Below, piece after piece: positions 30,706 to 47,805 of a stretch of 64,000 nucleotides of DNA; position 1 is the first letter of the stretch; the number at the start of each line of letters is the position of its first letter. The position numbers and the translations under genes were made by a program. The notes beneath the pieces are model-generated. The model did no database searches, was not told the origin of the DNA, and was given only the letters and a program-made list of their open reading frames with translations. Origin of the DNA: Barnesiella sp. (GTDB lineage: Bacteria; Bacteroidota; Bacteroidia; Bacteroidales; Muribaculaceae); contig JAAVFD010000019.1 of the NCBI GenBank assembly GCA_014800945.1, positions 1 through 64,000 of the forward strand, written 5' to 3'.

Positions 30706-32148
30706 TTATGCCATCTGGTAGAGGTAGTTGTAAACGCAGCTTACAATACCTGCTCCGATAATACCTGCAACGCATACCCAGAGGGCGAAGCGTTCAGAGC
30801 CCGCGCTACGGAATTTTGCTATGGTGCAGTCGTCCTGGCTGATAAACATCGCTTTAACAACAAGGAGATAGTAGTATAGCGAAATGATTGTGTTTATAAG
30901 TGCGATCAGTACCAGTACATAGATTGCTACGCTGCCCTGATTGATTGCTCCTGTGAAGATGAAGAACTTGCTGAAGAATCCTGCAAAAGGAGGAATACCT
31001 GCGAGCGAGAACATTGCGAGCATCATTGTGAATGACAGGCGCGGGTTTGTTTTGTAGAGTCCCTTGTAGTCATCCATGTGCACTTTGCCGGTAGCATTTT
31101 CAATAGCTCCAATCACGCCGAATGCAGCGAGGTTTGAGAAGATGTAAACCAACACATAGTACATAAGGGCAGTCAGTCCGAGGGTATTGAAAGATATAAC
31201 ACCGAGCATGATGTATCCTGCCTGTGAGATAGATGAGAATGCAAGGAATCTCTTCATGTTGCGCTGACGCATTGCAAACAGGTTACCGACAGTGATGGTG
31301 AGTATTATGAGTGCGTAGAGCATCCATTCCCATGCGCATGAGTAAACTGTTCCGAATGCTTTCCATAGCACCACAAGGAATGCGAATGCTGCAGCGCCTT
31401 TGGAAATTACAGAGAGGTAGGATGTTACCGGAGTTGGAGCACCCTGATACACATCGGCAGTCCAGAGGTGGAAGGGAACAAGCGAAAGCTTGAAACCGAT
31501 ACCGGCAATCACGAAAGCGAGAGCGATAACGAGAAGCGAGTTGATTCCGCCTGCAGCAATTCCAATAGCGATGTAGTCGAAGTAAAGTGAACCGGTAAGA
31601 CCGTAAACGAATGAGATTCCGAGCAGGAAGATAGCTGATGAGAATACGGCTGTGAGCACATATTTAACAGCTGCTTCGTGGCTCTCGTAGCGATGCTTGT
31701 CAAAGGCAACCATAGCCGCGAGGGGCAGAGAGGCGGTTTCAAGACCGATAACGAAGAGCAGGAAGTGGCGTGCAGAAATCATGAGATACATACCGAACAG
31801 TGTTACAAGCAGAAGCTCGTAAAACTCTCCGCGACGCACTTTCACCATGTCCTGCTGCGCCCATCTGAGTGCCTGAATCATAACAATGAGTGCTCCGATA
31901 TTGAGCACATTCTTGATAGCCACTTCTGCAGATCCGGCACTGTACATGCCACTGAATGCTGTTTCAGCTCCGGCGAGAAGGCAGGGGCAGAATCCAAGCA
32001 CTGTAATAACTGCAAACGCAACAATACTAATCCAGCCGATAGCTCCTTGAGAGCGTTTAGGCATGAACGTGTCACAAAGGAAGACAAGGAGAAATACAAC
32101 AAGGAGTGCAATCTCCTGCTTCATTACAAAAAACTGAGAATAATCCAT
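30706..32148 (-). CDS. nuoN: NADH-quinone oxidoreductase subunit N
   Basis: One of three antiporter-like proton-channel subunits of complex I. It has 480 aa and 13-14 membrane helices. Family blocks are LPLAAMVAFDKH near the first conserved Glu/Lys region, KLSLVPFHLWTADVYQGAPTP (the best known NuoN/L/M block, with the conserved Lys and His) and FAFSSISQAGYIMLG-like LAFSSISQAGYI. It is the last gene of the operon, followed by a terminator. Confidence 0.95.
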   Translation of the reverse strand: MDYSQFFVMKQEIALLVVFLLVFLCDTFMPKRSQGAIGWISIVAFAVITVLGFCPCLLAGAETAFSGMYSAGSAEVAIKNVLNIGALIVMIQALRWAQQDMVKVRRGEFYELLLVTLFGMYLMISARHFLLFVIGLETASLPLAAMVAFDKHRYESHEAAVKYVLTAVFSSAIFLLGISFVYGLTGSLYFDYIAIGIAAGGINSLLVIALAFVIAGIGFKLSLVPFHLWTADVYQGAPTPVTSYLSVISKGAAAFAFLVVLWKAFGTVYSCAWEWMLYALIILTITVGNLFAMRQRNMKRFLAFSSISQAGYIMLGVISFNTLGLTALMYYVLVYIFSNLAAFGVIGAIENATGKVHMDDYKGLYKTNPRLSFTMMLAMFSLAGIPPFAGFFSKFFIFTGAINQGSVAIYVLVLIALINTIISLYYYLLVVKAMFISQDDCTIAKFRSAGSERFALWVCVAGIIGAGIVSCVYNYLYQMA

Positions 32149-32164
32149 TTTTCTAATCGCTTAT

Positions 32165-33697
32165 TTAGTTCATGCCGATAACGGCGAAGATTGATGGACT
32201 GAATGTGAACTTGATGAGACCCTCAAAGAAGTTGGGGAAGCAACCGATAGCAGCAACACAGATAATGAGCACAACAGTTGAGGTGCGTTCCCACCATGTA
32301 GCGTCTGTGAGAGTGAGGTGATGCTCGTCGTAAACCGGTCCGAGGAGCAGCTTGCCGACAACGCGGAGAATATAAACCGCGGTGATTACAATAGAGCAGC
32401 ATGCTATAATTGTGAACACAAGACGGAGTGAACCTTCACCGGCAAGATAGTCAGCCATACCGGCTTTGAATGAGCCTACGAAGATGGTCATCTCAGCAAC
32501 GAATCCGCTGAGACCGGGAAGACCGAGCGATGCCATACCGGCAATAACGTAACATACTGCAAGGAAAGGCATAATTTTCATCAGGCCGCCCATGAGTCTA
32601 ATGTCACGGGTATGTGTTCTACCGTAAATCATACCGATGAGTGCGAAGAAGAGAGCTGTCATAAGACCGTGTGAAAGCATCTGCATGATAGCACCGGTCA
32701 TCGCAGTGGTGTTGAGCATAAGAATAGCGAAGAGCACAAGACCGCAGTGGCTCACCGAAGAGTAAGCATTGATGTACTTGAGGTCGGTCTGCACACAAGC
32801 GCTGAAAGCACCGTAAACCACAGATATACCGGTGAGGATAAGGAAAATCCAAGAGAGTTCCTCAGCCGCCTGAGGCATAAGGTAGATAGCAACACGGAAG
32901 CAACCGTAACCACCCAGTTTCATGAGCACGCCGGCGTGTAGCATAGATACCGCTGTGGGTGCTGATGCGTGACCGTCGGGGCTCCATGTGTGGAAGGGGA
33001 ACATAGCTCCGAGTACTCCGAATCCTACAAATGTCATGGGGAAAAGGAAGTACTGCCAGCCTTCGCTGATAGAGGCATTTTGAGCAATAGCGATAAGGTT
33101 CCAGGTGTGGGGCTGTCCGGCAGGTGCAGAATGGTAGTATATACCGATAAGACCGAGCATGAGGAAAGCGGAACCACCCATGAGCATGAGGGTCAGCTTC
33201 ATTGCGGAGTAGTTTTTGTTTCCGCTACCCCAAACACCGATGAGAAGGTACATTGGGATAAGAGCAACCTCATAGAACATGAACATTGTGAAGAGATCAA
33301 TGGAGATAAAGAATCCGAATACTCCGGTTGAGAGCAGTATGAGCCAGAGGAAGAAATCCTTTGTGTGTGGCTCAATCTTCCATGAAGCGAAGCTGCCGGT
33401 GAGGAGGATAATGGATGAAAGGATAAGCATTGCGATAGAGATACCATCTACACCCACAGCCAGATTGATGTTTAGTGGAGCGAACCAGGTCCAAGAACCG
33501 GTGTAGAGCATGGGTGCAGTTTCACCCGCTGCTCTGAGTGCGAGGTAGTCAATGAGCAACCACACAGAGAGTGCGGTGAGTGCGAGTGAGCCGGTAACGG
33601 CTACCGCACGTATCTGCTGTATATTTCTGCAGATGGCGAGTCCTGCAAGCATGAGCAGGGGTATCACCACGAAATAAATCAGAATATTTGAAAACAT
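32165..33697 (-). CDS. nuoM: NADH-quinone oxidoreductase subunit M
   Basis: A 510-aa antiporter-like proton-pumping subunit of complex I. Landmarks are the MFMFYEVALIPMYLLIG block carrying the essential Glu, FPFHTWSPDGHASAPTAVSMLHAGVLMKLGGYG and AYSSVSHCGLVLF. About 14 membrane helices are predicted. It lies 16 bp before nuoN and 39 bp after nuoL. Confidence 0.96.
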   Translation of the reverse strand: MFSNILIYFVVIPLLMLAGLAICRNIQQIRAVAVTGSLALTALSVWLLIDYLALRAAGETAPMLYTGSWTWFAPLNINLAVGVDGISIAMLILSSIILLTGSFASWKIEPHTKDFFLWLILLSTGVFGFFISIDLFTMFMFYEVALIPMYLLIGVWGSGNKNYSAMKLTLMLMGGSAFLMLGLIGIYYHSAPAGQPHTWNLIAIAQNASISEGWQYFLFPMTFVGFGVLGAMFPFHTWSPDGHASAPTAVSMLHAGVLMKLGGYGCFRVAIYLMPQAAEELSWIFLILTGISVVYGAFSACVQTDLKYINAYSSVSHCGLVLFAILMLNTTAMTGAIMQMLSHGLMTALFFALIGMIYGRTHTRDIRLMGGLMKIMPFLAVCYVIAGMASLGLPGLSGFVAEMTIFVGSFKAGMADYLAGEGSLRLVFTIIACCSIVITAVYILRVVGKLLLGPVYDEHHLTLTDATWWERTSTVVLIICVAAIGCFPNFFEGLIKFTFSPSIFAVIGMN

Positions 33698-33736
33698 AAT
33701 TACTATACTTTTTCTTATTGCACCAATGTAATTCTA

Positions 33737-46781: not shown

Positions 46782-46837
46782 ATCTATGATTGGTTTCGTT
46801 ATAATCGGTTATTAATTTTTGATTGGGTGCCGAGGAT

Positions 46838-47446
46838 TTAATCTTCAACACCCTCAATAGGATGATTTTTCAGGAACTCTTCCTGTTTTTCCTGGCGGTT
46901 AACTCCGCCGAAGAATTTCTCAACCTTGATTTTGCGAGATAGCTGCATGATTGCATATATCATAGCTTCCGGACGTGGCGGGCAACCGGGAAGATAAACA
47001 TCCACGGGAATAATTTTGTCAACACCCATCACAACATGATATGATTTTTTGAAAGGTCCACCGCTCACTGCACACGCACCACAAGCAATAACATATTTGG
47101 GTTCTGCAAGCTGGTCATAGAGACGGCGCAAAACCGGAGCCATACGATGCACTATAGTACCTGCAACCATAATAAAGTCAGCCTGACGGGGGGATGAACG
47201 GGCAACCTCCCAGCCGAAGCGAGCCATATCATAGCGCGCCGCACCGAGAGACACAAATTCAATACCGCAGCAACTTGTCGCAAATGTCAAAGGCCATATT
47301 GAATTGGAGCGACCCCAGTTGATGAGTTTATCAAATGAACCTACAACAACGTTTGCACCATTTTCCTGAAGCTCTTTTACGAGACTTTCAATGTACTCGT
47401 TATCTTTCCACGCCTCATAGGGCATGCTCTTGGTAGTTACTTCCAT
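46838..47446 (-). CDS. nuoB: NADH-quinone oxidoreductase subunit B
   Basis: A 202-aa subunit holding the N2 [4Fe-4S] cluster that hands electrons to quinone. The adjacent cysteines C59-C60 (FATSCCGIE), C125 in GACAVSGG and C155 in PGCPP are the N2 ligand set; C122 is an extra Cys. It starts 10 bp inside the nuoA end and lies 56 bp before nuoCD. Confidence 0.96.
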
Positions 47447-47805
47447 TCAAGCGCTCCTTTCCGCCAGGCATAAACGAGACCCAGCACTAAAATAATGAAA
47501 AAGATTGCGATGCTCACAAGACCCGCACCGCCAAGGGCTTTTACTCTGACAGCCCATGGAAATAGAAAAACGCATTCCACGTCAAACATCAGGAACAGAA
47601 TAGCGAAGAGATAATAGCCTACCTTGAATTGAGCCATACTTTCGCCACGGGTTGGAATACCACACTCATAAGCCTCACCCTTCTGAGGGTTGAAAGAGCG
47701 GGGAGAAATAAGCCCCGCAAGCCACAACGCAAGAGCCACAAGACCGATACCGGTAAGAGCAGCTGCTATAGCAAGCGTTGAGTTTTGAATCGACAGTAAT
47801 ACCAT
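47437..47805 (-). CDS. nuoA: NADH-quinone oxidoreductase subunit A
   Basis: A 122-aa subunit with three membrane helices. The conserved cytoplasmic loop is [19 protein letters not shown], and the second helix holds [20 protein letters not shown] with the acidic residues used in coupling. It is the first gene of the 18-gene nuo/atp operon. Confidence 0.95.

Follow-up and report, generated by a model that had tools for sequence, protein, structure and literature searches.

In 2016 the Muribaculaceae ('Ca. Homeothermaceae', S24-7) were described as encoding a complex I with 11 of the 14 subunits, lacking NuoEFG, and an F-type ATP synthase, found in 26 genomes and placed within the complex I locus (PMC4936053). 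A locus of this kind is analysed here in a stretch of 64,000 nucleotides from a genome of this family labelled Barnesiella sp. (GCA_014800945.1, contig JAAVFD010000019.1, positions 1 to 64,000), hereafter called the window, in which a whole set of atp genes stands between nuoH and nuoI. It shares with the published locus the family, the placement of the atp genes inside complex I and the NuoEFG-less complex I. The nested arrangement is thus already in print for the family and recurs in every other family locus examined, so that the novelty attributed to it by an earlier, sequence-only reading of the window does not hold. The main-text passages of that paper do not describe gene order, insertion point, junctions, promoters and terminators or other families, and these are added by the present analysis.

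Two other systems resemble parts of the locus. The order atpD-C-B-E-F-H-A-G (beta-epsilon-a-c-b-delta-alpha-gamma) has been described as a minor arrangement for Bacteroides and Prevotella, with an assumed origin by fusion of smaller units (PMC5709465). Its eight genes are ordered identically to those of the window, but it is presented as an ATP synthase transcription unit, with no nuo genes around it in the relevant passages, whereas the unit of the window sits inside nuo. The nuo operon of Bacteroides fragilis (BF638R_0841-0850) also lacks nuoEFG, the missing NADH module being known for this species (PMC7002350); as its ten locus tags are contiguous, it presumably contains no atp genes and would differ from the window in this respect. 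A short epsilon subunit that has lost its C-terminal half is known in Bacteroidetes and Chlorobi (PMC4154653), and AtpC of the window is likewise short, with 77 amino acids. In the passages of the open-licence PMC literature that were covered, nesting is described only in PMC4936053, and no account was met of the junctions of the nested locus, of its spread to other families or of its transcription; the main text of a paper on Muribaculaceae (PMC6381624) contains neither 'ATP synthase' nor 'complex I'.

The locus of the window comprises 18 genes, all on the minus strand, from nuoA at 47805 to the end of nuoN at 30706; they are arranged as nuoA-B-CD-H, atpD-C-B-E-F-H-A-G, nuoI-J-K-L-M-N. This order and the gaps of 32 and 34 bp at the two junctions, both claimed from the sequence alone, were borne out by the coordinates and by gene naming with Pfam (nuoA to atpH) and NCBIfam (atpA to nuoN). 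The best matches of NuoI, NuoJ and NuoK fall below their NCBIfam cut-offs, the best-scoring family being still the expected one in each case. The complex I set (NuoA, B, fused C/D, H, I, J, K, L, M and N) is complete, as in the NuoEFG-less 11-subunit type; no nuoE, nuoF or nuoG occurs at the locus, which is filled by the 18 identified genes, the search for these three not having been extended to the rest of the genome. All eight ATP synthase subunits (alpha, beta, gamma, delta, epsilon, a, b and c) are encoded. The host genome, a draft of 38 contigs that is 82% complete, contains one AtpB, one NuoH and three Proton_antipo_M proteins, all of them within this locus.

The primary sigma factor of Bacteroidota recognises TAnnTTTG at -7 and TTTG near -33 (PMC7366714). 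In the window, TAnnTTTG is absent from the 250 bp upstream of both atpD and nuoI, and the two gaps, taken with short flanks, have minimum free energies of -2.1 (nuoH-atpD) and -2.0 kcal/mol (atpG-nuoI), which means no folding. The 96 bases 3' of nuoN contain a 16-pair hairpin followed by a T run (-25.5 kcal/mol). The sequence-only reading was therefore right in placing a terminator after nuoN and in seeing neither a terminator nor a convincing promoter in the gaps. A general terminator scan does not list the nuoN hairpin and has no minus-strand entry in either gap. A sigma-70 scan, with a consensus that is not the one used by Bacteroidota, found no minus-strand site in the gaps. This E. coli-type promoter scan, which gave 35 sites against 29.0 (standard deviation 5.6) in shuffled sequences, is uninformative at this locus; its top site (11/12) lies in the nuoCD-nuoH gap.

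The nested order is general in the family of the window. NuoH was detected in 147 of its 149 genomes, and atpD immediately follows nuoH in all of the 45 loci examined, which were picked to span all 30 genera and exclude the window's own locus; 43 of them continue to nuoI and two (L006, L016) end with the contig. Nesting in 45 of 45 loci is not due to chance. An apparent loss of nuoJ-N in one locus (L017/L173) was rejected, since the sequence there changes to unknown bases after nuoI. In the rest of the order a NuoH match was obtained in 125 of 198 genomes, a few of which are family members. The 75 loci from the rest of the order (two from some genomes) comprise 11 nested loci, 62 with nuoI next, one with nuoI more distant and one at a contig end. 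These 11 come from six sampled families (f22, f28, f60, f68, f88 and f109). Coprobacter secundus 177 (L071/L113) belongs to f60, a metagenome-assembled genome labelled uncultured Barnesiella (L051/L117) to f22 and Candidatus Gallibacteroides avistercoris (L082/L102) to f88. Nesting is absent from the 20 loci sampled more widely in the phylum; nuoI is next in 13, and seven have no window-like gene shortly after nuoH.

Among the best 80 of 541 loci on genome contigs, 35 are nested, 43 plain and two unresolved. Of the nested ones, 28 extend to nuoI and seven end with the contig; 12 of the 35 are on contigs that also supplied loci to the family or order counts. The nested ones in this set include Coprobacter secundus, both Paramuribaculum loci and every one of the four loci labelled Barnesiella, and the plain ones include one Phocaeicola locus, three Butyricimonas loci and 14 of the 15 labelled Bacteroides (B. 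graminisolvens, B. oleiciplenus and B. stercorirosoris among them). The NCBI taxonomy places Paramuribaculum within Muribaculaceae and Coprobacter secundus within Barnesiellaceae. The genus of the window matches Paramuribaculum, judging from identical contigs of two congeneric genomes: over the overlap, 33 of 45 400-base words of one (G143) are identical with Paramuribaculum intestinale DSM 100749 (L010/L167), and 15 of 15 of the other (G091) with Paramuribaculum sp. (L006/L180).

Nine Nuo proteins were concatenated into an alignment of 3188 columns, and in the FastTree phylogeny built from it and rooted at its midpoint the 47 nested loci among the 86 tips form one clade with a support of 1.0. 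The tree omits 15 loci that are truncated or represent divergent second copies, of which L006, L016, L017 and L082 are nested, and it also lacks the loci from L102 onward. The atp genes were sampled at 20 of the 29 AtpB places found in 33 genomes. The eight-gene order D-C-B-E-F-H-A-G is present at 10 of them, standing alone at nine and behind nuoN at one (L193); the other 10 consist of eight places with only B-E-F-H-A-G, one AtpB alone (L196) and one cut nested locus (L201). The likely path would be a fusion of atpDC to atpBEFHAG, with the whole unit then inserted into nuo. On one contig (SUXD01000010.1, L139/L193) a plain nuoA-N operon is adjacent to a complete atpD-C-B-E-F-H-A-G set that begins about 280 bp behind nuoN. 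It was rejected as an intermediate: nuoN and atpD are separated by a promoter-like site, TACCTTTG, and by a hairpin, recognised by eye, that is followed by a T run, and the locus is not on the tree. In a genome from a plain family beside the nested clade (G253, contig C8), NuoH (50462-51406, minus strand) and AtpB (28257-28916, plus strand) are about 22 kb apart and in opposite orientation.

Promoter motifs were compared across 92 nested loci, including the window, which were reduced to 80 by removing those with an identical 200-bp sequence upstream of nuoH. In these loci the 250 bp upstream of the gene contain TAnnTTTG at nuoA in 52/77, at atpD in 6/80 and at nuoI in 7/72 cases; the corresponding counts in non-nested loci are 47/97, 7/10 and 5/96. 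The difference at atpD gives a Fisher p of 2e-5, which is indicative only, as the sequences are related. Both the -7 and the -33 boxes occur in nested loci at nuoA in 31/77, at atpD in 5/80 and at nuoI in 2/72 (shuffled rates 0.043, 0.055 and 0.004), and at non-nested atpD in 5/10 (shuffled 0.06). The -7 motif of nested loci is also more frequent at nuoM (11/52) and atpE (10/73) than at most genes. In strict sets, made of genomes of known kinship and not de-duplicated, the -7 motif is present in Muribaculaceae at nuoA in 33/44, at atpD in 1/45 and at nuoI in 5/43 loci.

Terminator-like hairpins were called with a rule of 6 T in 8 within 120 bases for the 80 nested loci and with a looser one of 5 T in 8 within 100 bases for later comparisons. 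By the stricter rule they follow nuoN in 23/52, nuoH in 0/80 and atpG in 4/72 nested loci, with nearly none in shuffled sequences; those after nuoJ (6/70) all lie within the nuoK coding sequence. The looser rule gave, for the strict Muribaculaceae set, 23/41 after nuoN, 0/43 after atpG and 3/45 after nuoH, and the last three (L005, L029, L220) were rejected as their sites are inside atpD, outside the gap. The atpG-nuoI gap differs between groups. In sister families a strong hairpin, variable in sequence, is often present in it (median -18.0 kcal/mol over 19 loci, z < -2 in nine), against a median of -1.6 kcal/mol in 52 other, mostly Muribaculaceae loci, of which four have z < -2 and 13 fall below -8; this second group consists of the nested loci outside a list of 22 others, the kinship of its genome-contig members being unverified and one f88 locus (L082) being included for nuoH only. 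The gap passes the terminator rule in 8/19 sister-family and 0/52 other loci, or 4/10 against 0/43 in the strict sets. The rule-passing stem-loops of eight Coprobacter/Barnesiella-type loci (L070, L071, L074, L075, L109, L119, L136, L141) differ in sequence and share the same atpG-nuoI position.

The explanation that we consider quite probable as a whole is a single insertion of an atp operon into nuo, followed by joint transcription in Muribaculaceae. It is based on the single clade of the tree, on the order in every Muribaculaceae locus examined and on the occurrence of the same atp order apart from nuo in relatives with plain loci. By a single relocation in the common ancestor of the Bacteroidales families of this clade, a complete F1Fo operon of the ordinary Bacteroidota type would have come to lie between nuoH and nuoI of a complex I operon without nuoEFG, and would have been retained there since. 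NuoH and NuoI, whose genes are separated by the insertion, are subunits in contact with each other. In Muribaculaceae the atp genes would then have lost their own promoter and come under that of nuoA and, with no terminator left behind atpG, both complexes would be made from one transcript that spans nuoA to nuoN, some 17 kb. The proton pump and the proton user would thus be switched together, the protein ratio being still set at the translation of each gene. The hairpin after atpG may partly separate nuoI-N in the sister families. The co-transcription proposed by the sequence-only reading is therefore likely in Muribaculaceae, where the motif stands at nuoA and hardly ever at atpD (33/44 versus 1/45) and the hairpin follows nuoN and not atpG (23/41 versus 0/43), and only possible in the sister families, in which promoter and terminator signals are mixed. 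Its suggestion that one transcript could fix the ratio of the two complexes is unsupported, since a shared mRNA leaves protein ratios free, the copy numbers of ATP synthase subunits differ (three beta per complex, for example) and a hairpin may sit at atpG-nuoI in sister families.

Several observations weigh against a single insertion with joint transcription. The tree is made from Nuo proteins only and rooted at the midpoint, and the inserted atp genes are only presumably of the same lineage. The remaining Bacteroides-labelled locus, from a metagenome-assembled genome (L129, record JAAVDH010000007.1), is nested; it is possibly a mislabelled genome and is absent from the tree. Upstream of nuoA, 25/77 nested loci are without the -7 motif and only 31/77 have both boxes, and 18/41 family loci show no terminator after nuoN by the rule used. 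In the strict sister-family set the contrast of the -7 motif is weak (nuoA 5/11, atpD 3/11, nuoI 1/10), so that promoter loss is clear only in Muribaculaceae. The sister-family hairpin could be a remnant of the former end of the atp operon, a reading to be held loosely because only 6/18 atp operons outside nested loci have a terminator-like site after atpG. At nuoL the nested loci stand out, with the -7 motif in 18/70 and both boxes in 8/70 against a shuffled rate of 0.039, and an internal promoter is possible there.

A rival explanation, for which the nuoL counts also speak, is that nesting is a historical contingency devoid of regulatory meaning, the atp genes and/or nuoI-N being expressed from unrecognised internal promoters or through alternative sigma factors. 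The motif scanned is that of the primary sigma factor only, sister families keep the atpD motif in 3 of 11 loci, and with the terminator-like hairpin in 4 of 10 of their atpG-nuoI gaps, nuoI-N may need another start there. Nevertheless, we regard this explanation as unlikely, given that the atpD motif occurs in 7/10 loci outside the nested ones versus 6/80 within them, that the nuoH-atpD gap is short in all 50 loci measured (median 48, maximum 132) and that none of 43 family loci has a terminator-like hairpin after atpG. That the order was selected for physical or dosage coupling, by co-translational assembly or a fixed ratio, is very improbable. The order has been conserved for long and over several families, and a published genome, H5, lacks both complexes (PMC4936053); however, adjacency alone would also lead to co-loss, operons may persist through inertia, the sister-family hairpin would uncouple dosage, and no sign of contact was seen in any analysis run. 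Two further cases of co-loss were rejected: in G039 (94% complete, with AtpB and without NuoH) the contig ends in atpD (L201), so that the missing NuoH is an assembly break, and G141, which gave no match to NuoH or AtpB, has a completeness of just 83% and is not counted as evidence. In five order-level genomes of 99-100% completeness (G206, G260, G177, G240, G188) no AtpB match was found, and they may have another type of ATPase. An assembly or binning artefact, conceivable for an incomplete draft, has a negligible probability, as the 45 other family genomes with the same order include Paramuribaculum intestinale DSM 100749 and a one-contig genome (G092/L219).

The features of the locus are listed in the table below. 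Immediately downstream of it, at 25309-30359, the window contains a pair of genes for SusD-like (25309-27261) and SusC-like (27288-30359) proteins.

Table. Coordinates of the nested nuo/atp locus and its signals in the window
Feature	Coordinates	Strand	Basis and remarks
TATATTTG, match to Bacteroidota -7 element TAnnTTTG, 110 bp upstream of nuoA start	47908..47915	-	motif scan
nuoA	47437-47805	-	Pfam PF00507; nuoA/nuoB pair spans 46838..47805, genes overlap
nuoB	46838-47446	-	Pfam PF01058; overlaps nuoA
nuoCD fusion	45153..46781	-	Pfam PF00329 + PF00346
nuoH	44037..45113	-	Pfam PF00146, 398 bits
nuoH-atpD junction, 32 bp, without hairpin or promoter motif	44005..44036	-	
atpD (F1 beta)	42499..44004	-	Pfam PF00006/PF02874
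atpC (epsilon, 77 aa, N-terminal beta-sandwich only)	42232..42465	-	Pfam PF02823
atpB (subunit a; putative TTG start)	41132..42244	-	Pfam PF00119
atpE (subunit c)	40850..41095	-	Pfam PF00137
atpF (subunit b)	40337..40834	-	Pfam PF00430
atpH (delta)	39781..40326	-	Pfam PF00213
atpA (alpha)	38204..39778	-	TIGR00962, 753 bits
atpG (gamma)	37293..38174	-	TIGR01146, 242 bits
atpG-nuoI junction, 34 bp, without hairpin; terminator-like hairpin here in some sister-family loci	37259..37292	-	
nuoI	36638..37258	-	TIGR01971 top match, 106.8 bits, cut-off 113
nuoJ	36094..36609	-	top NCBIfam matches are NuoJ models, below cut-offs
nuoK	35776..36087	-	top NCBIfam matches are NuoK models; second one above its cut-off
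nuoL	33737..35770	-	TIGR01974, 574 bits
nuoM	32165..33697	-	TIGR01972, 398 bits
nuoN	30706..32148	-	TIGR01770, 360 bits
terminator-like 16-pair hairpin into T run	30630..30666	-	fold of 30610-30705, -25.5 kcal/mol

The clade may have kept the steps of a fusion of two operons, with the atpD motif still present in some sister-family loci, the hairpin after atpG in the Coprobacter/Barnesiella-type loci, and both lost in Muribaculaceae, where one obligate transcriptional unit would be regulated and lost only together. We offer this as a tentative possibility, itself somewhat doubtful. The families with and those without the hairpin at the second junction would form a natural series on operon fusion. 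Two of the largest bioenergetic operons can be stably merged in several families of gut bacteria. Should the single transcript prove real, the ATP synthase of Muribaculaceae would not be controllable apart from complex I at transcription start, and mutations in nuoA-H may be polar on the ATP synthase.

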